From Clostridia bacterium (GTDB lineage: Bacteria > Bacillota > Clostridia > Oscillospirales > Acutalibacteraceae), in NCBI GenBank assembly GCA_017454485.1, contig JAFTCX010000060.1, positions 1-37,846 on the forward strand: 37,846 nucleotides of DNA, in the 5' to 3' direction. The notes beneath the pieces are model-generated. The model was given only the letters and a program-made list of their open reading frames with translations, searched no databases and had not been told where the DNA came from. The position numbers and the translations under genes were made by a program. The stretch's first letter is position 1, and every line of letters begins with the position of its first letter. Shown in pieces: positions 9,439-33,897 of this stretch.

Positions 9439-11088
9439 TTATCTGCTGAAAAGCCTACGGAAGAAGTTCAAAATCATTTGGATCAGCTTTTGGAAGAAAT
9501 TCATATTGCCAGTGTTGTTACCGCCGTCATCCTGATTCGGATGATCGGGACTCGCAGGGTCGGTCGGTTCTTCTGCTGCAGCGTCTTTTTCAAATGTTGC
9601 AACCAAGACAACGTCTTCGGTAACAGTAAAGGTATAAGTCATGTTGTCGCTGACTTTTTCCTCATCTTTGTACCAGCCGATAAAATGATATCCATCGTTT
9701 ACTTCAACCGTTAAGGAAACAGTATCGTTGCAGCGTGCAGCGGTATTCCCGGTAACAGTTGCACCGCCGATCGGTCCGTTCAAATAGACCTTGATCGTTT
9801 TCGGCGCAATGTATTTCGCCGTCAGCGTCATGTCTTCGGTTGCGGTAAAGGTGTATTCTTCGTTACCGCTGACTTTTGTATCTCCGTCATACCACCCATC
9901 GAACAGATAGATTTCATCCGGATAAGCCCTTGCTGTCACCGGCGCTCCAAGCGCACTGACAAGACCCGAAACCGGAGACACATGGCCGCCTCGTTCGGTC
10001 GTCAAATTCACAAGCATCTTACATTTTGAAGAGAAAAGAGAAGCAGATAGTTCGGCGTTCTGCGTCAGTGACGTCAAAACACAAGCCGGGCGAATTCCGT
10101 TGTCGGTTTTGCCAACCGTAGCGCCTGCGCTTGTGACGCCGGTGTAATCAACGCTGCAAGCACAATCGGGGCGTAAACCGGCGGATCGAAGCAGCCAGAA
10201 GGAAGTTCCTTCTTCGGTAACTGACAGGCCTCGGCATTTCGCGTAATCCGTGCCGCTTGCGGTTTTTGCAGCATCCGGAACAACGCTGTTGATTGACGTG
10301 CCGAAGCCGTAGGCCGTATTGAGCGCCTGGTCATAAGACAGCAGGAAAATTTTATCGATCGTCGTTGCAGAGTCAAACTGCGCATAACGCGTGTCAAATG
10401 CTTCGTTTGTCAGCGCAGTGGTTTGGATCAAAGCTTTCTGCGCATCGCTGAATGCCGTTTCATAAAAATCATAGTTCAGCCAGTCGCGAATGGAGGACGT
10501 TGCGTAATCGTTGGCAAGAACGGAGGAGTATTTTCCTTGAAAAGATTCAATCTTTGTTTGCGGATAACTCGTTGTAATTGTGTGGAACACATTTTGATAC
10601 GGCTGGGAATCAATGATCGTTTCGCACATCACAAGACCGGTTTCAGCGTCAAGCACACGCCATTGCAGCGGTTCATACCTGAAATAATAGTAAGTGTCTG
10701 TTTCAAAGCCGTTTTCATCCTGAACAGAGTAGTACGCATCGGCTTGCCTGTTCGTTATTTGCGGTCGGAACTGCGTAAATCGAACCCGGCGATACTTTTG
10801 CGCATCACAGAAAAAGTCCGTGATTTCCACCCTCTGATTTCTTTCGGGCTCATCTTCTTTTTCTGCGCGGGAAAAATCAAAAATGAATCCGCTGTTTCCG
10901 GCGTTGTCCGCTTCATCGGCGGCGGTTTTCAATGCATCTGTTTCTGCAACGCGTGTTTGCGGATAGGTGCCGAATGCGAGTGTGTCGCCGACCTGACAGG
11001 CTGTGCCCTGTGCAAACGCCAGCGACATTCCCGATAAGGCCAGCAGGGTCGATAAAAGAATGGATACAAGCTGTTTTACGTGTTTCAT
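9439..11088 (-). CDS. Secreted DUF6273 protein with two InlB-like repeats and C-terminal amphipathic tag
   Basis: The 549-aa product starts with a signal peptide (MKHVKQLVSI..., cleavage near SLAFAQ). Residues ~33-345 fit DUF6273, a domain of Clostridial surface proteins: GDTLAFGTYPQT at the start, EPLQWRVLDAETGLVM in the middle, FWLLRSAGLRPD and NGIRPACVL at the end. Two divergent InlB/Listeria-Bacteroides-type repeats follow (~365-435 and ~438-505), each ending in a TFTATED.TLTAKY-like strand. Then come a Pro/Asp/Asn-rich linker and a final helix NFFQKLIQMILNFFRRLFSR. No LPXTG motif is present. The start has AAGGAGG 8 bases upstream. The gene has its own promoter and a long structured leader. 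Role unknown; probably surface-located. Confidence 0.85.
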   Translation of the reverse strand: MKHVKQLVSILLSTLLALSGMSLAFAQGTACQVGDTLAFGTYPQTRVAETDALKTAADEADNAGNSGFIFDFSRAEKEDEPERNQRVEITDFFCDAQKYRRVRFTQFRPQITNRQADAYYSVQDENGFETDTYYYFRYEPLQWRVLDAETGLVMCETIIDSQPYQNVFHTITTSYPQTKIESFQGKYSSVLANDYATSSIRDWLNYDFYETAFSDAQKALIQTTALTNEAFDTRYAQFDSATTIDKIFLLSYDQALNTAYGFGTSINSVVPDAAKTASGTDYAKCRGLSVTEEGTSFWLLRSAGLRPDCACSVDYTGVTSAGATVGKTDNGIRPACVLTSLTQNAELSASLFSSKCKMLVNLTTERGGHVSPVSGLVSALGAPVTARAYPDEIYLFDGWYDGDTKVSGNEEYTFTATEDMTLTAKYIAPKTIKVYLNGPIGGATVTGNTAARCNDTVSLTVEVNDGYHFIGWYKDEEKVSDNMTYTFTVTEDVVLVATFEKDAAAEEPTDPASPDHPNQDDGGNNTGNMNFFQKLIQMILNFFRRLFSR

Positions 11089-11266
11089 GGTGCGATTCCT
11101 CCTTTAAAAATAAAAATAAAAATGCGCAGCCGGAGCCACGCACCTGTAAAAATACATAACTCCATTTGCTGCGACACAAATCTTTTCAACCGAAAGTTCA
11201 TTGAAAATGAGTCTGTATCTTTACCAAGATACAAACTTTCGGTTAAAAAGCAAAGATTTATGTCGC
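11089..11266 (-). ncRNA. Structured leader RNA, candidate riboswitch or attenuator
   Basis: The minus-strand transcript of the DUF6273 gene should begin near 11266. It would first form a long imperfect stem (11171-11198 with 11234-11266; arms GCGACAYAAATCTTT and AACCGAAAGTT are nearly fully complementary) that opens into two small stems, CATT/AATG and GTATCTT/AAGATAC, making a three-way junction. Downstream, 11123-11142 folds as an 8-bp stem with loop TCCG, followed by a T-rich tract (three runs of five T) that ends at the AAAGGAGG ribosome binding site. Promoter, junction, terminator, then RBS is the order expected of a transcription-attenuating leader. I do not recognise the motif. Confidence 0.5.
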
Positions 11267-11272
11267 ATCTTA

Positions 11273-11301
11273 ACTCTACCACATCTCCCCCGAAAAATCA
11301 A
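11273..11301 (-). promoter_or_regulatory. Sigma-A promoter of the DUF6273 gene
   Basis: On the minus strand TTGATT (11296-11301), 17 bases, TAGAGT (11273-11278). The expected start, about 7 bases on, coincides with the first base of the long hairpin at 11266. The rest of the 11089-11493 gap is the leader RNA and the terminators listed separately. Confidence 0.7.
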
Positions 11302-11371
11302 GTGTTTCCCATAAAAAAACGGGCGTCTTGAAAGTGCTTTTTGCTTCCGCAACAAAATTGGAATCGCAACG

Positions 11372-11398
11372 AAAAAAAGCCCCAACGGAGCTTTTTTT
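11372..11398. terminator. Bidirectional terminator after the CD1247-type gene
   Basis: A 12-bp stem with seven A before and seven T after (AAAAAAAGC...GCTTTTTTT), loop AAC. It lies about 95 bases beyond the stop of the minus-strand gene at 11494 and would work on either strand. Confidence 0.85.
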
Positions 11399-11400
11399 CT

Positions 11401-11417
11401 GCGGCCACCGGCCGCCC
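11401..11417. repeat. GGGCGGCC-type hairpin, second copy
   Basis: GCGGCC and GGCCGC around ACC, followed by CC. It is a variant of the intergenic palindrome at 9255-9273, again close to the 3' end of a gene. Confidence 0.7.
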
Positions 11418-11493
11418 TTACAAATTCTGATGTTGATTGCGCGGCTGCGGTTTTACATCCCGCCCGCCGGCAAATTTCATTGCGACTTGCGAA

Positions 11494-11937
11494 TTATTCC
11501 TCGTCTTCCGCTTCGTTTTCGTCCTCGTCGTCTTCCATCTCGATTTCGAACTCAAGCGTTTCGCCGCAGCACGGGCATTCCACCTGGCCGTCGTCGTCAA
11601 TCTCGTCAAGGTCGATGCAGATGTTTTCGCCGCAGGCCGGGCAGGTCACTTCGATGCAGTCGTCGTCATCGCAGCAATCGCAGTCGTCGTCGCAGCAATC
11701 GCAATCATCGTCGTCGATGTCATACACAAAGTCTTCCACATCGCCGAGATCCTCGTCGATCTCTTCAATGTAATCGTTCAGCGTGTCCACATCGTCTTCC
11801 AGACCGCTGATTTCGTCGGCGATCACTTCCAGCGTGTCGAGCACGGCGGCAAGCAGCTTGCCTTCTTTTTTATCGGTGTCGATGTCAAGGCCTTCCATCA
11901 GGCCCTTCAAATAAGCAACTTTTTCACTCACAGACAT
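11494..11937 (-). CDS. CD1247-type acidic protein with zinc ribbon and Asp/Cys run
   Basis: The 147-aa product begins with the CD1247 N-terminal domain (SEKVAYLKGLMEGL, then a predicted coiled coil to about residue 72). An Asp/Cys run follows (DDDDCDCCDDDCDCCDDDDC, around residues 76-95), then a zinc-ribbon-like unit with CPAC and CPCC knuckles, and an acidic tail (EDEDENEAEDEE). The ribbon suggests zinc binding; the Asp/Cys run suggests extra metal binding, which is inference. It lies 20 bases after efp with AAAGGAAC as ribosome binding site, so both are co-transcribed. This neighbourhood is common in Clostridia, but the function is unknown. Confidence 0.85.
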   Translation of the reverse strand: MSVSEKVAYLKGLMEGLDIDTDKKEGKLLAAVLDTLEVIADEISGLEDDVDTLNDYIEEIDEDLGDVEDFVYDIDDDDCDCCDDDCDCCDDDDCIEVTCPACGENICIDLDEIDDDGQVECPCCGETLEFEIEMEDDEDENEAEDEE

Positions 11938-11957
11938 GGTTATGTTCCTTTCTGCGC

Positions 11958-12515
11958 TTATGCGCGGCCAAGATATTCGCCGGTTCTGGTGTCGACCTGG
12001 ATCATTTCGCCCTCATCGATGAAGAGGGGCACTTTGATCTCTGCGCCGGTTTCCAGTGTGGCGGGTTTGGTGGTATTGGTTGCGGTGTCGCCCTTGAAGC
12101 CGGGATCGGTCTTCGTGACCTGAAGCTCCACAAAGTTAGGCGGTTCCACGCCGAAGACCTTGCCTTTATAGGACAAAATCTTGCAGGTCATGTTCTCTTT
12201 CACAAACTTAAAGCTGTCCGGCAGATCCGACTGGTTGATGGGGATCATGTCATACGTCTCGTTGTCCATGAAATAATACAGATCGCCGTCGCTGTAGGAA
12301 TAATCCATATCCTTGCGCTCAATGTAAGCCGTGGGGAACTTCGCGGTGGGGTTGTAGCTCTTTTCCACCACTGCGCCGGTGATCACGTTCTTGGTCTTGG
12401 TTCTGACGAATGCAGCGCCTTTGCCGGGCTTCACATGCTGAAATTCCACAACCTGCAGCACGTTGCCTTCTTCTTCAAAGGTGACGCCGTTTCTGAAATC
12501 GCCTGCTGAAATCAT
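11958..12515 (-). CDS. efp: Elongation factor P
   Basis: This 185-aa protein is EF-P, which binds between the P and E sites of the ribosome and relieves stalling at polyproline stretches. The three beta-barrel domains are complete: the KOW-like N-terminal domain with the loop KPGKGAAF, whose tip Lys is residue 32; the OB domain with [20 protein letters not shown]; and the C-terminal domain ending [24 protein letters not shown]. The tip residue is Lys, so modification by a Lys-directed route is possible, but no epmA, epmB or ymfI lies in the window. The start has GGAGG 8 bases upstream and a good promoter. Confidence 0.98.
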
Positions 12516-12549
12516 AGTAGTATCCTCCGTGTTCTAAGTTTACTTTAAT

Positions 12550-12578
12550 AATGTATCATAAAACCTCCCTTTTTGCAA
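12550..12578 (-). promoter_or_regulatory. Sigma-A promoter of efp
   Basis: On the minus strand TTGCAA (12573-12578), 17 bases, TACATT (12550-12555), about 35 bases before the efp start. Confidence 0.75.
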
Positions 12579-12708
12579 GTGTTTTTTGAAACTTCCTTCA
12601 GGAAAGAACTGCAAAGATGACTTTTTTCTTAAAAATGCGGCGGGGTTCTTCTTTTTTTGCGCAATCTATGCTATGATAAGAGCATCAAAACGAAAAGGAC
12701 GATGCTTC

Positions 12709-13554
12709 ATGAAAAAATGCTTTGGTTTTGCCGCGCTGATTCTGGCTTTGCTGGGTCTGCTTTGTGCCTGCGGCAGTCAACCGCTGGAAGAGACGCCCGC
12801 ACCTTCCGCCACAGAAACAACCACCGAAGCCGACCCCGTGGTACGCGTCATGTTTCCCGAGGGCTACACCGCAGTGGAAATTGCCGAAAAGCTGGAAAAA
12901 AACGGCGTTTGCGCGGCAGCGGATTTCATGGCGGCGGTCAAAAACGCCGACGGGGTGAAAAACAGCTACGCCTTTCTGTCCGACGTAGATTTTTCCGAAC
13001 GTGCCTTTGCGCTTGAGGGCTATGTGTTCCCCGACACCTATGACTTTTACCGCGGCGAGAGCGCCCAAAAAGCTCTTTCGCGCTTTTTGAACAACATGAA
13101 CACCAAGCTCACCGAAGAGCGCAAGGCGCGCGCGGCAGAGCTGGGTTACACGATGGATGAGATCCTCACCCTCGCCTCCGTCATTCAGGAGGAATGCGGC
13201 GACCCGAAGGAGATGGCGAACGTCTCCGCTGTGATGCACAACCGGCTGGAAAGCCCGGATTACGGGATGCTGCAATGCGACGTGACGATTCATTACGTCA
13301 ACGACCGCATCACCGATTCGCCCTATCTTTCCGGCGACACCTCGGTTTTTGCGGCGCGCTATAACACCTATAAGGTGCGCGGTCTGCCTGTCGGCGCCAT
13401 CTGCTGCCCCGGGACCGACGCGATCGACGCGGCGCTGTATCCGGCGGAATCCAACAATTTCTTCTTTGTCACCGACGCGGATATGAATTATTATTACGCC
13501 GAAACGTATGCCGAACATCTTGAAAACTGCAAGAAGTGCGGGATAGATGTTTAG
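12709..13554 (+). CDS. mltG: Endolytic murein transglycosylase MltG, lipoprotein form
   Basis: MltG cuts nascent glycan strands at the membrane and so limits their length. The 281-aa product has a LysM-like segment (~residues 45-85, VVRVMFPEGYTAVEIAEKL) and the YceG catalytic domain: LEGYVFPDTYDF, then LASVIQEECGD with the catalytic-position Glu near 162, VMHNRL, a QCDVTIHY segment and YNTYKVRGLPVGAICCPG. Most MltG proteins have an uncleaved N-terminal membrane helix; this one has a lipobox-like LLCAC with Cys21 and a low-complexity Thr/Glu linker, so it is probably lipid-anchored. Starts upstream of 12709 lack an RBS; AAAGGA lies about 10 bases before the ATG. Its TAG stop is the first base triplet of a heptamer array. 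Confidence 0.92.
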   Translation: MKKCFGFAALILALLGLLCACGSQPLEETPAPSATETTTEADPVVRVMFPEGYTAVEIAEKLEKNGVCAAADFMAAVKNADGVKNSYAFLSDVDFSERAFALEGYVFPDTYDFYRGESAQKALSRFLNNMNTKLTEERKARAAELGYTMDEILTLASVIQEECGDPKEMANVSAVMHNRLESPDYGMLQCDVTIHYVNDRITDSPYLSGDTSVFAARYNTYKVRGLPVGAICCPGTDAIDAALYPAESNNFFFVTDADMNYYYAETYAEHLENCKKCGIDV

Positions 13555-13607
13555 TCGGTAGTCGGTAGCTGTTAGCTGTTAGCTGATAGCTGTTAGCTGT
13601 TAGCGGA
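13552..13607 (+). repeat. TAG-heptamer array 2
   Basis: Eight contiguous seven-base units, the first of which starts with the mltG stop codon itself: TAGTCGG twice, TAGCTGT twice, TAGCTGA, TAGCTGT twice, TAGCGGA. Same family as the arrays at 9279, 15384 and 19487. Confidence 0.85.
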
Positions 13608-13613
13608 CAGAGA

Positions 13614-13653
13614 AGCCCCGCCGTGGATGTAGAATCTGCGGCGGGGCTGTTTT
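13614..13653 (+). terminator. Terminator of mltG
   Basis: A 10-bp perfect outer stem (AGCCCCGCCG, 13614-13623, with CGGCGGGGCT, 13639-13648) is followed by GTTTTC. The loop contains TGGATGTAGA, shared with the spoVA terminator at 9326. Confidence 0.8.
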
Positions 13654-13688
13654 CAATGCGTAATTCGTAATGCGTAATGCGTAATTAT
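13654..13688. repeat. TAATGCG heptamer array
   Basis: Five seven-base units: CAATGCG, TAATTCG, TAATGCG, TAATGCG, TAATTAT. The last overlaps the 3' end of the minus-strand gene at 13685. A different heptamer, but with the same period of seven and, on the plus strand, again a stop triplet (TAA) in most units. Confidence 0.75.
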
Positions 13689-15262
13689 CTGCCGAACAGG
13701 CGGGCGAAAAGGTTGCGGAACCATTGAATGATGCGCTGGAAGAAGTTGAGGTTTTCGGCGGGTGTTTCGTCTTGCTCTTTCGGTTGTTCTGCAGCGTTTA
13801 TGGGCTGACCTCCGTCCTGCTCTTCACGCACTTCATAGGCACCGCAGACAGTGCAAAAACGGACTTCAATGCCTTTTTCGTTCGGATCGCTTGAACGGAA
13901 AGGTTTCCATTTGCCCCATTTATGGCCAGCTGGCGCTGTGATGTGGTCTGTATACGCGTAGCCGCAGACGGAGCACCTGTGGAAATCGTAGCCTTCCGCG
14001 GTGCAGGTCGGCGGAACAATGCCCACTTTATAGTTGTGACCCGTTGCCGGAATCTCACGTGTAAAGCTCTGGCCGCAGACGCCGCAGGTCGCCTTTTCTT
14101 CGCCCGCCTTTTCGCAGGAAGCAGCTTTCACAGTCGCGAAGCCGTTCGCGTCAGCTCTGTGGCCGGAAGCGGGAATAACAGCCTGTGCGATGAAGATCTC
14201 GCCGCACACGGAGCAGTGTGCGCCGCTTGTCTTGCCGTCCTTGGTGCAGGTGGCAGCAACCGCTTCGTCAACCGCGAGCGTGTGTTCGCCGGCACTCAGG
14301 GTTTTGGTTTCCTTTTCCTTGCAAACGTTGCAAACACGGGTGACGGTGCCACCATTTGCGCAGGAATAACCTGTAGGCCCAGACCAGTTGCCCCACTTGT
14401 GACCGGTCTTCGGCAGCACAGTGCCGGCGGTGATGATCTCGCCGCAGACCGCGCAGGTCATCTCGTTCAGAACGCCGTCCTTGGTGCAGGTGGCGGGCAC
14501 ATTCTTCGTGGTCGGGGTGTGCGCCGCAAGGGGCACGGTTTCCTGCGCCTTGATGGTGGTCTTGCAGGCTTCGCAGTGGCTGCCCTCAGTCAGACCGGTC
14601 GCTTTGCAGGTCGCCTGCTTTGCGGGGTCGGTCTTTACGGATTTGTGGTTTTTGGGATTGGGTTCGCCGTAGGACTGTTTGCAAACCTTGCAGATCGCCT
14701 TATCCACACAGTTGGCGGGTGTGCCTTCGGTGTGCGGAAGCTTCGGAATCACCGCGCCGCCGACATAAGGCGTTTGGCAATCTTTACAAGTACCGATGCC
14801 GGTTTTGCCTTCTTTGGTGCAGGTTGCAGGCTCTCCCGGAATCTTCACGTCGATGTTGCGGTGATTGTTCTTGTCAATCTGATCCGCCGGGCCGTTGAAC
14901 ACGAGCTTATCTGCATTTGCATTACCCTTTGCACTGGCGCCGCAGACGGAGCAGGATTTGTAGTACGTCGCAGGACCTTTGCAGTAAGCGGGATCCTTCA
15001 CATACTTGTCTTCCGCCTTATCCGTCCATTTGTGTCCGGCTGCCGGTTCGTTCTGCTTCTTTTCTCCTTCACACTTCGGGTTAGAGCAAACATAGATGAC
15101 ATAACCCGGCTCTGTACACGTCGGTTGTGTGAATCTTTTTTCGCCTGTCAAATCACTGCCGCACGTCTTACACTTGTCGACCGCGAAGGAGGTCAGCGGG
15201 AACGCGCAAAGCAGCAAAACGAGTACGAACAACAGCAACAAATAAGATTTGATACGTTTCAT
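13685..15262 (-). CDS. Secreted Cys-rich repeat protein with C-terminal amphipathic tag
   Basis: The 525-aa product starts with a signal peptide (MKRIKSYLLLLFVLVLLLC, cleavage near TSFAVD). Residues ~28-480 are about ten tandem units of 35-50 residues with the pattern A-T/S-C-x-x-x-G-x(5-8)-C-x-x-C-x(8-12)-P-x-x-GH, for example ATCTKDGKTSGAHCSVCGE. Such units occur in many Clostridial surface proteins; the paired CxxC and the His suggest metal binding or disulfides, which is inference. A polar Gln/Glu/Pro linker leads to the tail NFFQRIIQWFRNLFARLFGR at the stop. There is no catalytic domain. The start has AAAGGAG 9 bases upstream. It is convergent with mltG. Confidence 0.85.
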   Translation of the reverse strand: MKRIKSYLLLLFVLVLLLCAFPLTSFAVDKCKTCGSDLTGEKRFTQPTCTEPGYVIYVCSNPKCEGEKKQNEPAAGHKWTDKAEDKYVKDPAYCKGPATYYKSCSVCGASAKGNANADKLVFNGPADQIDKNNHRNIDVKIPGEPATCTKEGKTGIGTCKDCQTPYVGGAVIPKLPHTEGTPANCVDKAICKVCKQSYGEPNPKNHKSVKTDPAKQATCKATGLTEGSHCEACKTTIKAQETVPLAAHTPTTKNVPATCTKDGVLNEMTCAVCGEIITAGTVLPKTGHKWGNWSGPTGYSCANGGTVTRVCNVCKEKETKTLSAGEHTLAVDEAVAATCTKDGKTSGAHCSVCGEIFIAQAVIPASGHRADANGFATVKAASCEKAGEEKATCGVCGQSFTREIPATGHNYKVGIVPPTCTAEGYDFHRCSVCGYAYTDHITAPAGHKWGKWKPFRSSDPNEKGIEVRFCTVCGAYEVREEQDGGQPINAAEQPKEQDETPAENLNFFQRIIQWFRNLFARLFGR

Positions 15263-15293
15263 TTTTTATTCTCCTTTTGTTTATTTCAAATCC

Positions 15294-15322
15294 ACTTTAT
15301 CATACAAATAGGAAAAAATCAA
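15294..15322 (-). promoter_or_regulatory. Sigma-A promoter of the Cys-rich repeat gene
   Basis: On the minus strand TTGATT (15317-15322), 17 bases, TAAAGT (15294-15299), about 32 bases before the start codon. Confidence 0.75.
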
Positions 15323-15334
15323 GCATTTACACAT

Positions 15335-15360
15335 AAAAAAGGGCGGCCACCGGCCACCCT
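15335..15360 (-). terminator. Terminator of the metY-ychF unit (GGGCGGCC hairpin, third copy)
   Basis: On the minus strand GGGTGGCC, loop GGT, GGCCGCCC, then six T. It is a version of the intergenic palindrome seen at 9255 and 11401, here with a real T-run. Confidence 0.8.
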
Positions 15361-15383
15361 ACTAACAACTATGTGCGGTTTAA

Positions 15384-15453
15384 CTTGCTAACAGCTAACA
15401 GCTAGCAGCTAACAGCTAACAGCTATCGACTAACGACTATCGACTACCGACTA
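15384..15453 (-). repeat. TAG-heptamer array 3
   Basis: On the minus strand ten contiguous seven-base units start three bases after the ychF stop: TAGTCGG, TAGTCGA, TAGTCGT, TAGTCGA, TAGCTGT twice, TAGCTGC, TAGCTGT twice, TAGCAAG. The orientation is sense with ychF, as for the other arrays and their genes. Confidence 0.85.
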
Positions 15454-15456
15454 ACA

Positions 15457-16551
15457 TCACACATTAAACAGGAAATGCACGATGTCGCCGTCCTTCATCA
15501 CATACTCCTTGCCCTCCGAGCGCACCAGTCCCTTTTCACGAGCAGCGGCGAGGGAACCGCATTCCATCAGGTTGTCGAACGTGACGACCTCGGCGCGGAT
15601 GAAGCCGCGCTCAAAATCGGAATGGATTTTTCCGGCGGCCTGCGGCGCCTTTGTGCCGTTTTTGATCGTCCATGCGCGCACCTCCGGCTGCCCGGCGGTG
15701 AGATAGGAGATCAGGCCGAGCAGATGATAGGAGCGCTGAATGAGCAAGTCCAGACCGCCCTGCTCAATGCCGAGATCGGCAAGGAACATCTCACGGTCCT
15801 CCTTGGAAAGCGAGGAAATCTCCGCTTCCAGCTCCGCGCAGATGGGCAGCACTTCGCTGTTTTCCGCTTCGGCAATTTTACAAACGGCAAGGTAGTTTTC
15901 GTTGGTCTCAATGCCGTTGGTGAAATCCTCTTCGCTGAGGTTACACGCATAGATCACGGGCTTTGCCGTCAAAAGGCCGGCCTCGTCCAAAATCGCCTGT
16001 TCGTTTTCGTCGCAATCGATCGTGCGCGCCGGCTGTTCGCTTTCCAGCGCCGCTTTCACACGCTTCAAGAATTCCAGCGTGGCGGCAAGCGATTTGTCGC
16101 CCTTGAGCGCCTTGCTTGTGCGGTCAATGCGGCGGTCGATCATTTCAAGATCGGAGAGGATCAGTTCCAGGTTGATCGTCTCAATGTCGCGCTTTGCGTC
16201 CACACTGCCATCCACATGGATGATATCGTCGTTTTCAAAGCAGCGCACCACATGCACGATGGCGTCCACCTCGCGGATGTGCGAGAGAAATTTGTTGCCG
16301 AGCCCTTCGCCCTTGCTGGCGCCCTTGACCAGACCGGCAATGTCCACGAATTCTACCGTGGCCGGCGTGATCTTCACAGGCTTGTACATCTCCGCAAGCG
16401 CATCAATGCGCTTGTCCGGCACGGCAACCACGCCGACGTTCGGCTCAATGGTACAAAATGCATAGTTTGCAGACTGTGCGCCCGCATTGGTAATGGCGTT
16501 GAACAGGGTACTTTTGCCGACATTCGGCAGACCCACAATTCCGAGTTTCAT
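15457..16551 (-). CDS. ychF: Redox-regulated ATPase YchF (Obg family)
   Basis: The 364-aa product is a complete YchF/Ola1 P-loop protein, ribosome-associated and linked to stress responses. Motifs: G1 GLPNVGKS at residues 6-13, G3 DIAGLVKGASKGEGLGNKFL near 70, and in place of NKxD the YchF-specific NLSEED (NxxE) near 200, which favours ATP over GTP. A helical insertion and a C-terminal TGS domain (AWTIKNGTKAPQAAGKIHSDFERGFIRAEV) complete it. The start has AAGGA about 11 bases upstream. It lies 32 bases after metY with no terminator between, so they are probably co-transcribed. Confidence 0.98.
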   Translation of the reverse strand: MKLGIVGLPNVGKSTLFNAITNAGAQSANYAFCTIEPNVGVVAVPDKRIDALAEMYKPVKITPATVEFVDIAGLVKGASKGEGLGNKFLSHIREVDAIVHVVRCFENDDIIHVDGSVDAKRDIETINLELILSDLEMIDRRIDRTSKALKGDKSLAATLEFLKRVKAALESEQPARTIDCDENEQAILDEAGLLTAKPVIYACNLSEEDFTNGIETNENYLAVCKIAEAENSEVLPICAELEAEISSLSKEDREMFLADLGIEQGGLDLLIQRSYHLLGLISYLTAGQPEVRAWTIKNGTKAPQAAGKIHSDFERGFIRAEVVTFDNLMECGSLAAAREKGLVRSEGKEYVMKDGDIVHFLFNV

Positions 16552-16583
16552 AGTCTCTGTCCTTTCTTTTGCGTCGTCTTCGC

Positions 16584-17867: not shown

Positions 17868-17907
17868 AAGGATCGCCTCATTTCATCAAAATCAGAGAAG
17901 TACCTGT

Positions 17908-17937
17908 ATTATAGCACGCTTTACAGAGAATGTCCAA
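17908..17937 (-). promoter_or_regulatory. Sigma-A promoter of metY-ychF
   Basis: On the minus strand TTGGAC (17932-17937), 18 bases, TATAAT (17908-17913), 41 bases before the metY start. Confidence 0.7.
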
Positions 17938-18073
17938 TCTTTTTTTCGTCAGAGCGCAAAAAGTACACAAAAAAGCGGCGGCAATCAGCAGGCACTTTGG
18001 CTTTCGTTGCGTTTTTCATTTTTATTCATTTAACATTTGTTTATTTTTTGTTCATCTTTTTTTAACTTTTCTA

Positions 18074-18102
18074 TTGTCTTTTTTAGGTTTCTCTGTTATA
18101 AT
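18074..18102 (+). promoter_or_regulatory. Sigma-A promoter of the acyltransferase gene
   Basis: TTGTCT (18074-18079), 17 bases, perfect TATAAT (18097-18102). The surrounding 17990-18110 stretch is T-rich and contains no gene. Confidence 0.8.
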
Positions 18103-18130
18103 AAACAAAAAGAGAGAGGAGATGACCGCC

Positions 18131-24939: not shown

Positions 24940-27900
24940 TTATTTATGGAACAGTTGATAGAAGAACCGGAAAATCTTCACCAGCAGCTCATAGATCTGC
25001 TTGAAGAAGCGGATCAGACCGTTGCCGGCGAGGCCCTTGGAGCCGATGATGTCGCCGATGTTATCATCTGCGGCTTTGATCAGCGTTTGCAGCACCGCGC
25101 GGGCAATGTCGTTGTCAATCGTGGTCAGGTGATCAACAACCTCCTTGAGTTCCCCGTTCACATGGTCATACGCCTCCACGCCGCTGCCGGACGCCTGCGA
25201 AGCGCCATAGACGGTGTAGTAGATGCTGAGCATGGCCACTTCAAAGGAGCCGAGCGAACCCATGTAGCCCGCAAGCAGATACAGGAAGGACGCAACCGCC
25301 GCAGCGCCGACGCCGTGGATCTCCGCCTTGGATTGGATGAGTGCCATCAGCGCGTCAACATTGCCGTCCACGGCCAGGAATTTCAGCACAATGCGCATGA
25401 TGATGGAGAACAGATCGCCCAGGCAGTACTTGTCAATCGTCTTATCCAAAACCATGGTATAGGCCGTTTTGCCGGTCAGGGAGTTGAACGGACGCACATA
25501 GCCGTGGGTCAGCTCGTTGACCGCAAGCGCCGCAATGGAGGTGAATTTAAACGGCAGACCGAGACCGGCCAGGAAGTTGTTGATTGCCGCGAGTGCAACG
25601 CTGAACAGCAGACGGAAGTCGATATCCTCCAGCCCGTCCACAGCCTTCCAGGTGCCGCCGCACTGCTGATAGATCTCCTTCACGTCGTCTTCCGTGACGC
25701 CGATCAGCGTATACAGCTTTTCTTTGACGAGCTTTTCCAGATTCAGCGTGCGATACAAATCGAAGCCCTGCTCGTCATACACAAGCTGGCTGATCTGCTC
25801 CTTCATCGGCTCGGCAGCGTTGGCCATGATGAGTACGCTGTGAATCAGATTCTTCACCACAGTGTCGATGCCGTTGCTGTTGATGAAGTAGACGATGGAC
25901 GGCACCAGCTCCAGAAGCTGCGTCGCTGTGGAATCCATCAGCTTTTGCAGCATGGCAACCAGCGGATGTACAACACCCTCCACGGCAAAGCTGACGTCGT
26001 TCTTCACGTTTGCGGTGTAGACCGCCGGATCGCAGATATCGCCGTCGCGCAGATTCTGCGTCAGATTCTTCGGACTGCCGTCAATGTTCAGCGCCTCAAA
26101 CAGCGGCACAAGCGCATATTTGTAGCCTTCCGCGCCGGGCAGTGTAAGCTGGATGGGTTCGGTGTTTTTGCCGAGTCCGTCACCTTCGGCGAGCATCGTG
26201 TAATCGCTCTCGGCGAGCATCCACGCCATGGCAGGCGCCACCGGCGACAGCAGCTCAACGAGCGCTTTTTCAAACACCGCGCCGTTGGCGTCCACTGCGG
26301 CTTCCGTAATGTCATCGGAGAAGCCCCAGTCTCTGCCGTTTTCATAGATACCGCCCTTAGCGTAAGCATCCCACGCGTGCAGGTCCACGCCGACCAGACG
26401 CTGAATGAAGCCTGCGATCGCGCCGTCGGGATCGTATTTGTCGAGCAGCGGCTTGATTTCGCCGAGCAGACCGGTCAGTCGGTTCATCATGTCGTTGGAG
26501 AACAGCAGTCCGCCGATGAGCGCGTGCATCAGCGAGCGCAGATCGGTGATCTTGATGCCGCCGATTTCAAGGCCGAGCAGATACAGCATATCGTTGACGA
26601 ACGATTCAAAGTTTTCCACCAGCTCCGCCGCCATCTTGCGTGTCCAGAGCTTGCCGGCATAGGGATCGACGTCAAACAGCTTGGAGAGCGTCAGCGCGGA
26701 AACGAGGTGATCGGTGTCGCTGTATTCCGTGAACAGCCAGGAGGGATCCTGATAGTCGAACTTGAAGTCCTTCAGGTTCAGCACATTGATCAGCGTCCGG
26801 CGAACGTTTTCACCGAGCAGCGCATCCCAGAATCTGGTGTTGTCGGGATCCTCCAGCAGATCGAGCGCAAGGCTTGCAAGGATTGTGAGCGTCGCCGCCT
26901 TGTCCTGACTGTTGATATAGGTCATACGGTAGGTGTCGAAATCGCAGACGGACGCTGTGTTGTAATAGATCTTACCGACGGTGAAGTTGTCAAGCAGGCA
27001 CTTTGCAAAGTCGCTCAGATGCAGCACACACGGATCAAACTGTCCGTTCTTGGACTGCGGGATGAAGATCAGCGAGAGCACTTCGGACAGCGAAACGGTT
27101 TCCAGGTTCACATCCAGACCGGTGAACCGCTTGATCATGCCGGTCAGCGTCAAGCGCTCGTCGCCCGTCTTTCCGGCGTAGTCGTTATAGAAATCAAGGA
27201 TTGCCGTGATCTGTGCGATCATGTTCTGCAGCGACACGCCGAGCGCGTTGGAGTTGACAAAATAGAGCAGATCGGGCACGATGCCGAGCACGCCGTCGAT
27301 CACCTGTTTGCCGTCGCCGGAGGTCAGCAGCGCCGTGATGCGACCCACCACGCTTGAGAGCAGGTCGTGCATCAGCCCTTCGATGTCATACACACCGTCT
27401 TTGGTATAATCGCTTGCCGGTTTCAGATTTTCGCAGCCGATCGCCTCCAGCAGCGGCAGCAGAATGTAGCGGTAGCTTTCGATGCCCGTAACGTTGACAA
27501 GGTCGTCGCGGCGGGCTCTGCGCTCTGTGACGCCGGTGGCGTTGAACAAACTCAGATTCTTGCCGAGCAGCGCGAACGCAAGCAGCGGATGCAGCGGCTT
27601 AGTCAGTGTATAGAGGATATCCGCAAGGTTTGAAAGGTTTTCCTTGATCGCCGGACGGGTCAAACCGGTCGGCATACCATTGTCATTATAATAGATGAAG
27701 GTGTCGCCGTCTTTGACGGTGCGGCCGGGGTCAATATTATATTCTGCCAGCCGAATGCCGATCACGGTCGCCGCCTTATCCAGCGCCGTCTGATACTGCG
27801 CAAGCTTGGCGCTGACCTTATGGATGATGTCCAGCGCGTCTTCGGGATGCCATCTGTTGATGTGCTTTGCGATTTCAAAGAACGCCGGGTTGTCTCTGCC

Positions 27901-30900
27901 GCACATAAAGTCGCCGAGCAGGGCGAGCAGCTTTTCGATCGTCTCGTCCGTGAACAGACCGTTGACGGCCTCCATCGCAAAGGAGCCGAGCGTGAAGCTG
28001 TCTTTGTCGGACCGGATGTCGAGCAGGTCGAGCAGCAAATTGCCAAGCAGCTTGCCGTCGCCGGCGTCGATGTTCAGCGCGTTGGTCAGCATATCGTCCA
28101 TACGCTCCGCGAGCCAGACCGCAGTATCTTCATCCCAGTCGGTCATCGTATAGCTGTCGAGGTATTTGCCGAAGTCCTTCTGTGCCGACAGCGTGCGCTT
28201 TGCGGCAACGGGGACAAAGCCGTCTTGCTGAATCTGCGCCAGCAGCGCGGCCTTTTCAGCCGCCGTGGCATTTTCGCCGAGAATGTAGGCCCAGTTGAAA
28301 TCGGTACGGTAGGTTGCGGTCAGACCGTTCATCAGCTCAACCAACGTCTTGACTACACCCTTCAGAGAAAGCATCCGATCGAGCACAGCGTCGATGACGT
28401 CTGCGTTGTTATGGTACATCAGCACTTCCATGCCCATGCTCGCCATGACAGTCAGCGCATCGCTGCCGTTGACGTTCAGACGGTATGCAGTGCGGCGTTC
28501 GCCGTCGGCGTCAACCGCCTTGGATTGATACTCTTCGCGCAGCACGGCAAGATCGGTGATTGCCGCAAAATACGGCTGCTTCACATCCAGGTAAAGGCGT
28601 TTGCCGTCTTTGGTCGGCACAGACGCGATCACACTGAGCACGGAAAGCAGACGGTTCACCGTCAGGTTCTTCAGCGAAAGCTCTGCGCCTTGCGATGCGA
28701 GCACCTGCTGCATCTCTTTGGCGCTGTTGTATTTACCAATCGTATAGGTGAAGCGGCAAAGCAGCGTGTTCACCAGCTTGTCGAGATCGATATTGAGGAT
28801 CGGGCGCAAGGTATCGAGCATCACCCACAGCGGATGCAGGAAATTCTTTGTCAGCGTTGAAACGCCTTCACCGGAAAGCGCATACATCACCTGCGCGGCC
28901 ATCTCCAGCAGATCGGCGAGGACGGTGGGCGACTCAAAGATCTCGAACAGATGATCCAGGATCATGTTGAGCAAATGCAGCAAACCGGCAGAGGTGTCGC
29001 CGATGGCTTTGAATTCTTCGGCAGAGGGCGCATCGATGCCCATGGCTTCCAGCAGCGGCAGCAGACAGTCGTTATAGCCGTCGTTGCCCTTGATGGTGAC
29101 AAGCTGACCGGCAGGCTGACCGTCTCTTGTGTATTTCATCACTTTGAAGTCGTCGCCGGTGAACAGCATGGAAAACAGCGGCCGTGCCGGTGCGAGCAAC
29201 ACGCCCAGCGCGTTCAGAATATCGGTATAAGTGGAAACCTTCTTGCCGTCGAGCTTCCATTCGACAATCGGATCGCCGTTTTCGGCCGTGCCGGTGCGTG
29301 TGCCTTCCAACCGCGGGAAGGCTTTGGTTTGCGGCGCTGCGGCTAAGGAATCAAACAGATAGGCAAAATCGTTTGTCCAGCCGGAGATGTCGATGCCGGT
29401 GGCGTCCTTTACAAGATCGGCCGGAAGTGCAAGCGTTTCGTCATAAACGCCGCTGAGCAGCTCCACGAGCAGCGTCAGATACGCCGGTTCGTTCAAATAT
29501 TTTTCCAGCAGCGGGCGCGCAAATTCACGCAGCGTTTCAATCTTTTCCGTGGACGGATTCAGGTCATACGGAATCTCCTGCAGCAGCGCGTCAAGGAAAT
29601 CGTCGAGATCGTCGGTCACAAAGGTGGCCATCTCCGTTGTCCAGTTGTTATCATATTCCAGATACGGGATCTTGCCGCCGTTGTCGGCGATGTCCTGCTT
29701 CGTCGTGTCGGGTGCGTCCGGATAGGTCAGCGTATCCGCGTAAGTGTTCTTCGGCACAAGCATTTCACTCATAACCACAAGCAGATTGTCCGTCGTCAGG
29801 CTGGAAAGGAGCTTGTCAAGGTCGAGATTGCCGTTGTCATCGCAGGCGTTTTTCAAAAGATCAGACGCCTGCAAGCCGAGAACATCCGTGCCCTCCTGCG
29901 TAATCTTTGCGAGCGCAGCCTTCACGTCGTTATAGTCCAGCCCGAGCAATTTCAAAATGCCCGTGACCGCGCGCTTGTCGGTCAGCACGCCGGAGATCAG
30001 CTTTACGCAGAAATAGAACACATCGGAGATATCCGCGTTCACATGATAGTACTCGCCGGTTCTCAGGCTGTTCCAGTGCTTTCTGTAGTTGCCGTCACGA
30101 ATGGAATTTTCCTTCTTTTTGAGTTGGCCAAGGGAGGACAGCTCGTCGAGCGCATTTTCGTTCAGCAGGTTTCTATCCAGCAGATAAACCTCGTTGCCAT
30201 CCGCGTCGGTGAGATTCTCAAGGAACCACTGAACGACCGAAGAGAGCTTATTCGGATCAAAGCCGAGCGCATCGGGCGTGAAGAATTTTGCCAGCAGCTC
30301 GGAGAAGTTCAAATCGGCAACCAACTGTGCCGTGTCGATTTCCACATCCTTCGGCCAGTTGAAATCCGTGGCTCCCGGCTTGAGCCCAAAATCGAGCAGG
30401 CCGACAACTTTTTCCAGCAGCGGACCAACCTCCGGCAGCACAACATCGCTCATGAGGCTGTTCACCGGCTTTGAAAGGTTCACAATGTTGAACCGCGCAA
30501 GCAGGTTGATGTCGATCAGGCTTAAAAAGCCCATCAGCATGGCGGCAAGCGGCTGGAACATCATATAAGCAATGCTCGTTGTGACAAGCTGGACATATTT
30601 GACAGGATTGAGCCAGTCATACCAGTGCTTCATGATCTGATTTTCAATGATATCACCCAGACCGCTGAAGAAGCTTGATGCGGAATTCGTATTGAAGGAG
30701 GTGGAGATAAACAGAGAATAGGAGCTGTTCAGATCCAGCAGCTCTGTCAGCTTGCCGTTTTGCATCATGAGCGTCAAATTCGGCAAAATGGAAAGCAGCT
30801 TTTCGATCGGATGCGTTGCAAACTGCTTGAGCAGCGTCATCAGCGGATCCATAAGCGCATCCACCGCCACGCGCGCGTTCGCAGCGGCGTCTTGGGAGGT

Positions 30901-33897
30901 GAATTTGATTTGCCTGAACTGATAGGTCGGCACTGTGCTGCCGTCGGACGGCGCAAAATCATTGACGCCGAGCGCTTCAAAAATCGGAACGATGATATCC
31001 TCATAGTAATGGAACTCGCCCGGATAGAAATTGAAGCTGCCGTCGCTGGCAAGCGGAATGGCGACCAATATCAACTGAATCAACACGGAAAAATAGATCG
31101 CCTTATCCATTTTGATCTTATCATATTGCTGAATTTTTGTGGCAAACAGCATTTCCAGCAGCGGATTGATTGCGCCGAACAGAACCGAAAGAATGCCCTT
31201 GAAATCATCAAAGCTGGAAAGATTCCAGTCGAAATCCAGCTTGTCTTCCTCATTTAAAAGCTGTTTCCAGTTGTCGCCGCAGCCGTTCAGCTTAGAGATG
31301 ATGGAGCTGTATTTGCTTTCGTTCACACTCTTCAGCAGCTTTGCAATCTGACTGGGCCAGAAGGAAAAGCCCGCGTCGCCCAGCAGTTTCTTCAGCTCTG
31401 TGGCACGGCCGCCGTTGATGTCAACGTCCAGAGAACCGCCGAGTCCGATCACGTCAAGGATATCGGTAAGCGTGCTGCCAAGCGATGCGCTGCCGCCGGC
31501 TGCAAGCGTGATCGCGTTTACAATGTCGATTCTGAGGGTGTCATTGTCAAGCTTTCTCAAAAGATCGTTCTGCGTGAGCAGCTCCGGCAAATCGTCAATC
31601 AAGCCCGTGACCGTTGGGAACACCATGGAGAACATGGTGTTGATCGTGTCGTTGTCGAGCACCTTTTGCATCAAAACGCTCATGAGCAAATCGAACATCG
31701 TCACGATTCCGTTGTCGTCATAGTCGCGGATATCCACGCCGAAGGTGTCCGGCAAAATCTTTTTGATCATGGCGACCGCTTCGGGCGAAGCGGCAAAGCC
31801 GTCAATTTGCTGCACCATCGTCTTGATGGTTTCATCGGTCACCGTATAGGTGTCGGCGTCGTTGCCCTCTTTGCGCAGCATATCATCCGCCATGGCTTCG
31901 CGCTTGGCGTAATAGCCCTGGCTGTCATAGGTCGTTTGCTGGAAACCGGTAAACGCAGCTTCCCGCAGCGCATTGATTTCACGGCGAACATTTTCCAGCA
32001 TGGCGAAGCCGACGGCGCGGCGCGTCTGCGCGTTCGACAGATCGGCGCTCTGTCCGTTCCAGACCTGTGTGGCCGTTGTCTGATAAGAAGCGTCGGTATA
32101 AGCAGTGCCGTAAAGCTTCAGCAGCAGCGTCTCGGCATTTTCCACCGCTCTCATATTGGAGCGCACGGTGTTGCGGTTTCCGGCGTCAATCCGGAACCTC
32201 TGCGGCGTCACGCTGCCGTAAAGCGTTTTCAGCGCGGCGTCAAAGAGTTCGCCCGCCAGCGCATTCAGCGCCTCTTTTGCAGTGTTATATTTTTGCTCGT
32301 AGGTCGCATAGGCTTTGAAATAAGCCTTTGTCGCGCCATATTTCACGTTCGCATACGCTTCTTCATACTGCGCCTTCTGCTTGTCGAGCATATCAAACAG
32401 CGAACCGCTTGTATCCAGCGAGCGCACGCCTTCCACTGTGACAAACTTGCCGACCAGCGCTTCCGCCGTCACGTCGGCAGCTGTCAGCTTCTGCATATCA
32501 GCGGCAAACTTCAGGAACGCATCCTCGGTGGATTTCACCGTGTTGAATTCCGCGCGCATCTCAAGAACTGCAGGCAGGCTGGTCGTGTCGCCCTCTGTCT
32601 GCTGGAGCACTGCGGCGAGTGTTTTGTCAAGAAAATCAGCGTCCACCGTTTCACCGGCCTCGCGCTTTGCCAGCAGCGCCGCCTGCATGGCCGAAAGGGA
32701 GGCGGAAATCTGCTGCAGATTTCCGATTGTCTGATGCTTGCATGTCGTTTTGCAAACCGTGCACGTTGCGCTGCCGTAGTTATCGCTGTGCGCACAGGAG
32801 GCGTAATAATCTTTTCCGCAAACGTCGCATTTGCCGTCGTTGTTGCCATCGGCGCAAGTGCCGGTGCAATAGCCGCAAACGTCGCACTTGCCGTCGGGCG
32901 CGTCCTGTGTGCCGCCGATGTCGTCTGTGTAGGTGTGGGACGCATCCTTTCCGCAAGTATCGCACTTACCGTCATTGTTCGCGTCCACACAGACATGAGA
33001 GGAATCCTGACCGCAAATGTCGCACTTGCCGTCGGGAGCGTCCTGCGTGCCGCCGGTCACATCCGTATGTGTGCCCATGCACACACCGCAGCCGTCGCAA
33101 AAGCCGTCGGCAAAGCTGTGCGCACCATTGGCGCTGCACATCTTCTTGCCGCAAACATCGCACTTGCCGTCTGCGCCGACCGTGTAGGCTTCATACTGGA
33201 TATAGCTGTACTCCGTTGTCACCGTCTTCGGGTTTCCGTTTTCATCATAGACGATGTTGCCGGCTTCATCCATTTGATTGTACGTATAAGTACCCTTCGC
33301 GTTTGTGCCGATCCACACGCCTTGCGCGTTGTAATACTTGCCTTCCGCGTCCGGGCCGGTCACCTTATCCTGCTCAGTATACTGTTTCAACGTGCCGTCT
33401 GAGCAGCCGTTCAGGCAGTAGCCGCAGGTATCGCAAATCAAATCATGGTTCTCATCCTTAAAAGAACCGTAGCCCTTCGCGCCGTAAACAACCGTGGCGT
33501 CCTTCGCGTCGTTGACCGCGAGAAACGAAGTGCCAATGTCGTTTTCCAACGCCCACTTGGCAGCCGTTTCAATCTGCGCAACCGTGTACGTCTCCCAGCC
33601 GGTGGGCTCCTCCGCTTTTTTGGGCGCTTTGAACCAGGAGCGCTTTTGGGTCGATTCTTCGCTCACAAGCTCCATCCTGCCGGCGTCATTACGCACATAG
33701 GTGCGTTTTGTGTTGCCGACAGTGATTTCAGCCGCAATCAAATCGCCCTGCAGCGGCTCGCTTTCCTCGGTTTGTGCTTCCTCGCTCTGCGCGGCGGCAG
33801 CCTTCCATTCTTCGGCGAACACCGAAAGCGGAAGCGCCGACAGCAGCATCAAAAGGCTGAGCAGCACACTCAGGGATTTACGGATGGTTTTTTTCAT
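24940..33897 (-). CDS. Giant secreted protein (2985 aa) with Cys/Asp repeats and long helical repeats
   Basis: ATG 33897 has AAGGAGG 8 bases upstream and begins a signal peptide (MKKTIRK, LLSLLMLLSALPLSVFAEE). Residues ~150-390 hold about eight short units such as DANNDGKCDTCGKD and DAPDGKCDICG, combining a DxNxDG calcium-loop-like stretch with CxxC pairs. The next ~2550 residues are mostly amphipathic helix with no enzyme motif that I recognise. Four diverged long repeats can be aligned by a core resembling Y-x-LLPLLEALG: YEDIIVPIFEALGVND (~res 963), YNDCLLPLLEAMGIDA (~1606), YRYILLPLLEAIGCEN (~2139), YKYALVPLFEALNIDG (~2589). The C-terminus is FFKQIYELLVKIFRFFYQLF plus two residues. Probably a surface or matrix protein; function unknown. 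Nearly a quarter of the window. Confidence 0.85.
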   Translation of the reverse strand: MKKTIRKSLSVLLSLLMLLSALPLSVFAEEWKAAAAQSEEAQTEESEPLQGDLIAAEITVGNTKRTYVRNDAGRMELVSEESTQKRSWFKAPKKAEEPTGWETYTVAQIETAAKWALENDIGTSFLAVNDAKDATVVYGAKGYGSFKDENHDLICDTCGYCLNGCSDGTLKQYTEQDKVTGPDAEGKYYNAQGVWIGTNAKGTYTYNQMDEAGNIVYDENGNPKTVTTEYSYIQYEAYTVGADGKCDVCGKKMCSANGAHSFADGFCDGCGVCMGTHTDVTGGTQDAPDGKCDICGQDSSHVCVDANNDGKCDTCGKDASHTYTDDIGGTQDAPDGKCDVCGYCTGTCADGNNDGKCDVCGKDYYASCAHSDNYGSATCTVCKTTCKHQTIGNLQQISASLSAMQAALLAKREAGETVDADFLDKTLAAVLQQTEGDTTSLPAVLEMRAEFNTVKSTEDAFLKFAADMQKLTAADVTAEALVGKFVTVEGVRSLDTSGSLFDMLDKQKAQYEEAYANVKYGATKAYFKAYATYEQKYNTAKEALNALAGELFDAALKTLYGSVTPQRFRIDAGNRNTVRSNMRAVENAETLLLKLYGTAYTDASYQTTATQVWNGQSADLSNAQTRRAVGFAMLENVRREINALREAAFTGFQQTTYDSQGYYAKREAMADDMLRKEGNDADTYTVTDETIKTMVQQIDGFAASPEAVAMIKKILPDTFGVDIRDYDDNGIVTMFDLLMSVLMQKVLDNDTINTMFSMVFPTVTGLIDDLPELLTQNDLLRKLDNDTLRIDIVNAITLAAGGSASLGSTLTDILDVIGLGGSLDVDINGGRATELKKLLGDAGFSFWPSQIAKLLKSVNESKYSSIISKLNGCGDNWKQLLNEEDKLDFDWNLSSFDDFKGILSVLFGAINPLLEMLFATKIQQYDKIKMDKAIYFSVLIQLILVAIPLASDGSFNFYPGEFHYYEDIIVPIFEALGVNDFAPSDGSTVPTYQFRQIKFTSQDAAANARVAVDALMDPLMTLLKQFATHPIEKLLSILPNLTLMMQNGKLTELLDLNSSYSLFISTSFNTNSASSFFSGLGDIIENQIMKHWYDWLNPVKYVQLVTTSIAYMMFQPLAAMLMGFLSLIDINLLARFNIVNLSKPVNSLMSDVVLPEVGPLLEKVVGLLDFGLKPGATDFNWPKDVEIDTAQLVADLNFSELLAKFFTPDALGFDPNKLSSVVQWFLENLTDADGNEVYLLDRNLLNENALDELSSLGQLKKKENSIRDGNYRKHWNSLRTGEYYHVNADISDVFYFCVKLISGVLTDKRAVTGILKLLGLDYNDVKAALAKITQEGTDVLGLQASDLLKNACDDNGNLDLDKLLSSLTTDNLLVVMSEMLVPKNTYADTLTYPDAPDTTKQDIADNGGKIPYLEYDNNWTTEMATFVTDDLDDFLDALLQEIPYDLNPSTEKIETLREFARPLLEKYLNEPAYLTLLVELLSGVYDETLALPADLVKDATGIDISGWTNDFAYLFDSLAAAPQTKAFPRLEGTRTGTAENGDPIVEWKLDGKKVSTYTDILNALGVLLAPARPLFSMLFTGDDFKVMKYTRDGQPAGQLVTIKGNDGYNDCLLPLLEAMGIDAPSAEEFKAIGDTSAGLLHLLNMILDHLFEIFESPTVLADLLEMAAQVMYALSGEGVSTLTKNFLHPLWVMLDTLRPILNIDLDKLVNTLLCRFTYTIGKYNSAKEMQQVLASQGAELSLKNLTVNRLLSVLSVIASVPTKDGKRLYLDVKQPYFAAITDLAVLREEYQSKAVDADGERRTAYRLNVNGSDALTVMASMGMEVLMYHNNADVIDAVLDRMLSLKGVVKTLVELMNGLTATYRTDFNWAYILGENATAAEKAALLAQIQQDGFVPVAAKRTLSAQKDFGKYLDSYTMTDWDEDTAVWLAERMDDMLTNALNIDAGDGKLLGNLLLDLLDIRSDKDSFTLGSFAMEAVNGLFTDETIEKLLALLGDFMCGRDNPAFFEIAKHINRWHPEDALDIIHKVSAKLAQYQTALDKAATVIGIRLAEYNIDPGRTVKDGDTFIYYNDNGMPTGLTRPAIKENLSNLADILYTLTKPLHPLLAFALLGKNLSLFNATGVTERRARRDDLVNVTGIESYRYILLPLLEAIGCENLKPASDYTKDGVYDIEGLMHDLLSSVVGRITALLTSGDGKQVIDGVLGIVPDLLYFVNSNALGVSLQNMIAQITAILDFYNDYAGKTGDERLTLTGMIKRFTGLDVNLETVSLSEVLSLIFIPQSKNGQFDPCVLHLSDFAKCLLDNFTVGKIYYNTASVCDFDTYRMTYINSQDKAATLTILASLALDLLEDPDNTRFWDALLGENVRRTLINVLNLKDFKFDYQDPSWLFTEYSDTDHLVSALTLSKLFDVDPYAGKLWTRKMAAELVENFESFVNDMLYLLGLEIGGIKITDLRSLMHALIGGLLFSNDMMNRLTGLLGEIKPLLDKYDPDGAIAGFIQRLVGVDLHAWDAYAKGGIYENGRDWGFSDDITEAAVDANGAVFEKALVELLSPVAPAMAWMLAESDYTMLAEGDGLGKNTEPIQLTLPGAEGYKYALVPLFEALNIDGSPKNLTQNLRDGDICDPAVYTANVKNDVSFAVEGVVHPLVAMLQKLMDSTATQLLELVPSIVYFINSNGIDTVVKNLIHSVLIMANAAEPMKEQISQLVYDEQGFDLYRTLNLEKLVKEKLYTLIGVTEDDVKEIYQQCGGTWKAVDGLEDIDFRLLFSVALAAINNFLAGLGLPFKFTSIAALAVNELTHGYVRPFNSLTGKTAYTMVLDKTIDKYCLGDLFSIIMRIVLKFLAVDGNVDALMALIQSKAEIHGVGAAAVASFLYLLAGYMGSLGSFEVAMLSIYYTVYGASQASGSGVEAYDHVNGELKEVVDHLTTIDNDIARAVLQTLIKAADDNIGDIIGSKGLAGNGLIRFFKQIYELLVKIFRFFYQLFHK

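Follow-up and report, generated by a model that had tools for sequence, protein, structure and literature searches.

A recurrent C-terminal amphipathic tail on unrelated exported proteins of a Clostridia genus, likely an in-plane membrane anchor

Tailed genes of the window

The window, by which we mean the whole stretch of 37,846 nucleotides analysed (contig JAFTCX010000060.1, from a gut Clostridia bacterium of the Acutalibacteraceae), carries four minus-strand genes whose products end, or nearly end, in an amphipathic helix. The gene at 9439..11088 (minus strand) encodes a signal peptide, a DUF6273 domain, two InlB-type repeats, a linker of 25 codons rich in Pro, Asp, Asn and Gly (9502..9576, minus strand, its limit set by eye) and the tail NFFQKLIQMILNFFRRLFSR (9442..9501, minus strand), directly followed by the stop codon. 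The gene at 13685..15262 (minus strand) specifies a signal peptide, CxxC repeats that match no Pfam family, a Gln/Glu/Pro-rich linker (13748..13828, minus strand, limit likewise by eye) and the tail NFFQRIIQWFRNLFARLFGR (13688..13747, minus strand), which is found unchanged in two other genes of the same genome and is also directly followed by the stop. A secreted protein of 2,985 residues, without Pfam match, is encoded at 24940..33897 (minus strand) and ends in FFKQIYELLVKIFRFFYQLFHK; its tail, RFFKQIYELLVKIFRFFYQLFHK (24943..25011, minus strand), is a diverged one. The fourth gene, at 4871..5872 (minus strand), encodes a signal peptide, a GDPD domain and a C-terminal extension holding the amphipathic helix NIWNKIVVFFQNIFKSL (4913..4963, minus strand). 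This last helix is not terminal, since 13 further residues precede the stop, and a similar amphipathic stretch occurs in nine homologues.

An earlier note on this DNA had described the first two tails as closely matching ends of unrelated secreted proteins, each preceded by a signal peptide, unrelated domains and a polar linker and directly followed by the stop, and had pointed to similar helices at the end of the 2,985-residue protein and close to the end of the GDPD protein. All of this is borne out. NFFQKLIQMILNFFRRLFSR and NFFQRIIQWFRNLFARLFGR are identical at 12 of 20 positions without gaps, a score reached by only 2 of 200,000 shuffles of one tail, and the two proteins have no Pfam domain in common (DUF6273 and InlB-type repeats in one, no match in the other). 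None of the 21 other genes of the window shares more than 4 of 20 residues. The hydrophobic moments of the four helices, calculated at 100 degrees, lie between 0.38 and 0.45. When each helix was shuffled 5,000 times, 0 to 3% of the shuffled sequences attained its value. Among the 21 other genes, a single C-terminus (gene 21513, without signal peptide) has a comparable moment, 0.36. The 2,985-residue protein aligns at 23-27% identity with six proteins of as many other genomes to within 9 residues of its end, and there the six have tails closer to the canonical form. Its tail is therefore to be regarded as a diverged member of the family and not as a chance resemblance. As the earlier note also stated, the tail sequences hold neither an LPXTG motif nor a transmembrane helix, and an NCBIfam scan of five window proteins returned no sorting domain at the tail.

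Two neighbouring regions deserve mention. The gene at 34143-35756 encodes a VanY-type carboxypeptidase that has an fn3 domain and a signal peptide, probably a cleavable one, but no tail; tagging is therefore not universal among exported proteins. Genes of the SpoVAC/SpoVAEB type and spoVAD lie at 7174-9254, and on this ground the organism may form endospores.

Spread, cargo and limits of the tail family

A profile made from the two window tails (9439 and 13685) and run at E<=10 over the 2.42 Mb of the bacterium's own genome gave 23 matches, one gene being counted twice, of which 22 lie within 16 residues of the stop; the sole non-terminal one is in L026. A wider profile of 42 tails, built partly from the genus genomes on which it was then run, gave 21 matches at E<=0.01 in 20 genes of the own genome, all C-terminal when read. 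Across the genus, a match to the own-genome profile at the lax threshold of E<=1 was present in 34 of 34 genomes (among the matches listed), and the wide profile, at E<=0.01, found between 1 and 25 matches per genome in 32 of the 34. Seventy-nine matches from 24 other genus genomes were examined, taken from outside the own genome and mostly the best-ranked among those listed. Six of comparable E (to about 0.007) were skipped, five of them in frames of 8,291-10,726 residues the other at G141:C237; of the weaker matches, L100 and L101 were included and the rest, like the unlisted ones, left out. In this set 78 matches lie within 18 residues of the stop, L084 being the one away from the C-terminus. 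This C-terminal concentration, together with the shuffles, rules out a chance resemblance of the tails. Open frames of 8,291-11,501 residues, very large for bacteria, match the tag in nine genus genomes among the matches listed (G147:C2, G149:C6, G148:C1, G122:C17, G131:C6, G142:C7, G127:C19, G125:C12 and G136:C249); the C-terminal end was read in the G149 frame only (L090).

The proteins that carry the tail are diverse. A Pfam scan of 30 of them, 10 from the own genome and 20 from the genus, found 14 domain types: LRR_5, CHAP, alkaline phosphatase, papain-type peptidase with a lectin-like domain, DUF6273 with InlB repeats, GDPD, GDSL lipase, Cthe_2159, M6 peptidase, CotH, DUF285, Big_2, metallophosphoesterase and LCAT, of which LRR_5 and DUF285 overlap in one protein (L110) and may be related. 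Eight of the 30 had no Pfam match, and no known anchor or wall-binding family appeared among the matches obtained. The cargo domains being unrelated, one homologous domain shared by all the tailed proteins is ruled out as the source of the tails. Signal peptides were scored by a simple rule (a hydrophobic stretch and an [AGSTVC]xA site) and not by SignalP. By this rule, a signal sequence is present in 60 of the 78 genus matches at C-termini, 59 of the 60 also having an [AGSTVC]xA site, while 14 lack their N-terminus in the DNA fetched and 4 have no signal (two of them being frames of 30 residues or fewer). Among 19 tagged proteins of the own genome, the same rule finds a signal sequence in 17 and a cleavage site in just 14. 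The 25 residues ahead of the tail in 79 tagged proteins are enriched 4.2-fold in Pro, 2.7-fold in Gln and 1.5-fold in Glu. Thus, the profile search that the earlier note had proposed turned out as it had anticipated: the matches concentrate at C-termini, on signal-peptide proteins with unrelated domains.

The same note had envisaged a search across the Oscillospiraceae, and here its expectation held for the genus, in which the tail is numerous, but not beyond it. In samples of the family, order and class, which overlap, matches were found in 3 of 119, 10 of 393 and 17 of 390 other genomes, respectively; among the 119 is one member of the genus itself, which gave no match. Outside the genus there is nearly always one match per genome, and only G517 had more in the order and class samples. 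Nineteen of the 28 matches from these wider samples lie within 20 residues of the stop, and five of the 19 sit in frames of 67 residues or fewer and may be spurious. The sampled genomes thus give stray matches, and wide use of the tag across the family, order or class is unsupported; as a numerous family the tail is a feature of the genus and not of the Oscillospiraceae in general. When a named genome collection was searched with a DNA pattern encoding the core FFxxIIxWFxxxF, 49 matches in 47 stretches came up, mostly from metagenome-assembled genomes (MAGs) labelled Clostridia, Oscillospiraceae or Ruminococcaceae, many of them from the gut of goat, sheep, deer, buffalo, yak or horse. Forty-five of the 49 lie within 13 residues of the frame end, four of these in frames of fewer than 50 residues.

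Exchange with other anchors in two enzyme families

Two families in which only some members are tailed made it possible to compare the two ends of each protein. For the GDPD proteins all 40 genus matches were taken, and their N-terminal types were assigned by the simple rule, corrected by a reading made with knowledge of the C-terminus. So assigned, the 24 proteins read as having a cleavable signal peptide all carry a C-terminal extension of 30-104 residues, mostly amphipathic; the 15 read as having an uncleaved N-terminal anchor all lack one, their stop falling 4-8 residues past the domain. One further protein without a readable N-terminus (L310_7), which stops 9 residues past the domain, stands outside the comparison of 24 with 15 and is included in the tree. 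By the raw rule, the extension is present in 15 of 17 proteins with an AxA site, 5 of 5 with a lipobox, 4 of 8 scored as uncertain, 0 of 9 anchored ones and 0 of 1 with no N-terminal feature; each of the five lipobox-scored proteins has an A-rich site further on. A moment of at least 0.34 occurs within the last 40 residues of 20 of the 24 extensions. The weaker ones, below 0.34, are those of L304, L306, L307 and L308, and the extension of L290 is net acidic. One of the 15 N-terminally anchored proteins (L309) also reaches 0.34. At L310, in G127, two GDPD genes lie side by side, one with signal peptide and tail, the other without a readable N-terminus and without tail.

For the alkaline phosphatases, 27 of 28 family homologues were retained, L232 being dropped as truncated. 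Signal peptide and C-terminal helix occur together in five of them, the helix of L220 being weak. In a sixth, the signal peptide goes with a sortase-type C-terminus and there is no tail. A tail is likewise missing from eight proteins taken to be lipoproteins, six of which the rule classes so, and from thirteen that read as anchored at the N-terminus; one tail-less phosphatase, L241, scores as uncertain by the raw rule. In the trees, the extension changes 2-3 times among the GDPD proteins (at least 3 when all branches are counted) and the tail 2 times among the phosphatases, fewer changes being forced by the well-supported branches alone in either case. Independent pairs on well-supported branches number one for the GDPD proteins and two for the phosphatases, too few for a sign test, and in one of these pairs the tail does not follow, the member with a signal peptide having a sortase-type end.

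The earlier note had taken the tail for a sorting or anchoring tag that might insert sideways into the membrane or bind a partner. The exchange with other anchors in two families is the chief functional evidence on the tail; comparative as it is, it favours anchoring over partner binding. Docking onto a protein partner, or of the tailed proteins onto each other in a helix bundle, as on a surface scaffold, would be in keeping with the strong hydrophobic face and the conservation of sequence within the genus; but basic borders and a variable face suit lipid better, the exchange is with membrane anchors, and the profile matches a tail of the PBP5 type (see below), so that we hold docking to be quite improbable.

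Shape of the helix and probable mode of action

Helix-wheel counts were made on 35 distinct tails (from 41 proteins, out of 98) that had been chosen by a pattern fixing the hydrophobic positions; these positions are circular by selection, and it is the free ones that are informative. Basic residues occupy positions 5, 11 and 16 in 89%, 71% and 83% of the 35 tails, respectively, and acidic ones never do; acidic residues occur chiefly at positions 4, 8 and 12 (23%, 20% and 40%). On a wheel of 100 degrees basic residues line the two edges of the apolar face, and acidic residues point toward the middle of the polar face, an arrangement known as "class A" in apolipoproteins. A large hydrophobic residue stands at every second to third position of the tail, in fixed helical phase, and among the tails the helix is freely extended, doubled or altered by substitution. 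An AlphaFold model of a tagged CHAP protein, built from three aligned sequences with a mean pLDDT of 44, was too poor and was left unused.

In the three genes that share the NFFQRIIQWFRNLFARLFGR tail (13685, L004 and L005), the 20-residue tails are identical with 6-7 synonymous codon differences, while the 150 residues upstream have 25-37% identity over 43-102 aligned residues. It follows that the amino-acid sequence of the tail is under selection. Such conservation seems greater than a plain lipid anchor would require, a point against simple anchoring.

The tail is likely to be a portable in-plane amphipathic membrane anchor of exported proteins, similar in action to that of PBP5/DacA, as far as sequence comparison can tell. 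After export and removal of the signal peptide, the final 18-26 residues of the protein, borne on a flexible linker rich in Pro, Gln and Glu, would fold into an amphipathic helix lying on the outside of the cytoplasmic membrane, with Phe, Ile, Leu and Trp entering the lipid and Arg and Lys at both borders of the apolar face binding anionic headgroups. In this way the tail would replace other means of retention: the uncleaved N-terminal helix, the lipobox or the sortase signal. The C-terminal position, the unrelated cargo, the signal peptides found by the simple rule, the amphipathic pattern and the exchange in two families are the observations behind this reading; folding of the helix in the membrane, the membrane face and retention on the cell are what we infer from them.

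A known parallel is Escherichia coli PBP5, whose last 18 residues form an amphipathic helix that holds it at the membrane; lacking this helix, the protein is soluble and localizes poorly (PMC2909392). The tagged proteins likewise are exported, have a C-terminal amphipathic helix of about 18 residues and no transmembrane segment, and would be attached to the membrane by it, as PBP5 is (PMC2909392). Unlike the PBP5 helix, which is confined to one protein family, the tag is a suffix of unrelated proteins with a Pro-rich linker, and it is numerous in one genus only among the samples searched. The wide profile matches the last residues of a Peptidase_S11/PBP5_C protein (L205) from another family of the order, with E 0.0068. 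These domains were seen only in that protein, which is outside the genus, and in the DacA of the own genome; neither the four window proteins nor the 30 tagged proteins scanned by Pfam have them. DacA proteins of the genus, found by BLAST, end in short, mostly basic segments loosely similar to the tag, and the DacA tail of the own genome is not among the profile matches, which counts against the anchoring reading. Most likely, the tail is a portable suffix that has grown common in one genus and acts like the PBP5 helix without belonging to the PBP5 family. Another in-plane amphipathic anchor is that of the pestivirus glycoprotein Erns, a single viral glycoprotein for which we claim no homology; there, lipid affinity alone does not set the fraction retained (PMC4536213), which speaks against the anchoring reading.

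The exact conservation bears on the other readings. We would give a small chance to a broader proposal, a genome-wide system of surface retention in which the tails are read sequence-specifically by an undescribed receptor or processing enzyme, that is, a new sorting system and not a lipid anchor alone. A narrower form, in which an undescribed enzyme recognises the tail and cuts it off or transfers the protein to wall or lipid, as sortase, exosortase and rhombosortase do, is improbable. Like the LPXTG, PEP-CTERM and GlyGly-CTERM signals, the tail is a genome-wide suffix common to otherwise unrelated signal-peptide proteins, present in only some members of a family and replaced elsewhere, and the identity of three tails recalls the conservation of LPXTG and CTERM signals (PMC3237569). 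But the tripartite C-terminus of LPXTG and CTERM proteins (motif, transmembrane helix, basic cluster) is absent: the tail has no signature motif and no transmembrane helix, its basic residues are spread along the helix, and extensions, doublings and substitutions are tolerated. The GDPD members, moreover, have at least 13 residues behind the helix. The earlier note had also proposed to look for a co-occurring protease or sortase-like gene. A search of the own genome for sortase PF04203, the only enzyme sought, gave two genes (G000:C71, L032 and L033); they lie beside a gene for a 314-residue protein whose long linker is made of Pro/Thr repeats and whose C-terminus is of the sortase type, so that it has the layout of the tagged proteins with a different terminal device. 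The tagged proteins are thus unlikely to be substrates of these sortases, and the search yielded no enzyme dedicated to the tail.

Two further readings start from the charge of the helix. Binding of the basic tail to anionic wall polymers such as teichoic acids, instead of the membrane, would agree with the net positive charge of the canonical tails but would not need phased large hydrophobic residues, and is very unlikely. That the tail is a membrane-active or lytic peptide directed against other cells is scarcely credible: its composition is cationic and amphipathic, but linkers join it to repeat proteins and enzymes, no site at which it could be cleaved free was recognised, and the exchange with anchors would be left unexplained.

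On the anchoring reading, the tagged proteins probably stay on the membrane. Having none of the usual marks (LPXTG, lipobox, SLH, transmembrane helix), they would be called soluble and secreted; this affects phosphodiesterases, phosphatases, proteases, BspA-type repeat proteins and very large proteins of the genus. A C-terminal amphipathic tag independent of its cargo would be a simple signal for surface display and a class missing from localization predictors. A literature search, by sequence and by subject, in a collection lacking most subscription journals found no description of it.

Similar ends occur elsewhere. Two DPANN archaeal proteins with an N-terminal hydrophobic segment, from Woesearchaeota and Pacearchaeota records, end in FFAKIINWFKNLF and FFKRIINWFKDLF, and a protein from a Clostridioides MAG ends in FFDKIINWFKNLF (the three being the group L175, L195 and L177); these tails are probably convergent. 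DUF1002 proteins of other Clostridia (L207, L208, L314, L315, L318, L325 and L328, assigned by Pfam for four of the seven and by resemblance for the rest) also end in similar amphipathic helices. Like the tagged proteins, those of L207, L314, L315 and L328 are secreted and carry a profile-matching amphipathic helix at their end; unlike them, they belong to one family, with a single profile match in each of those genomes.
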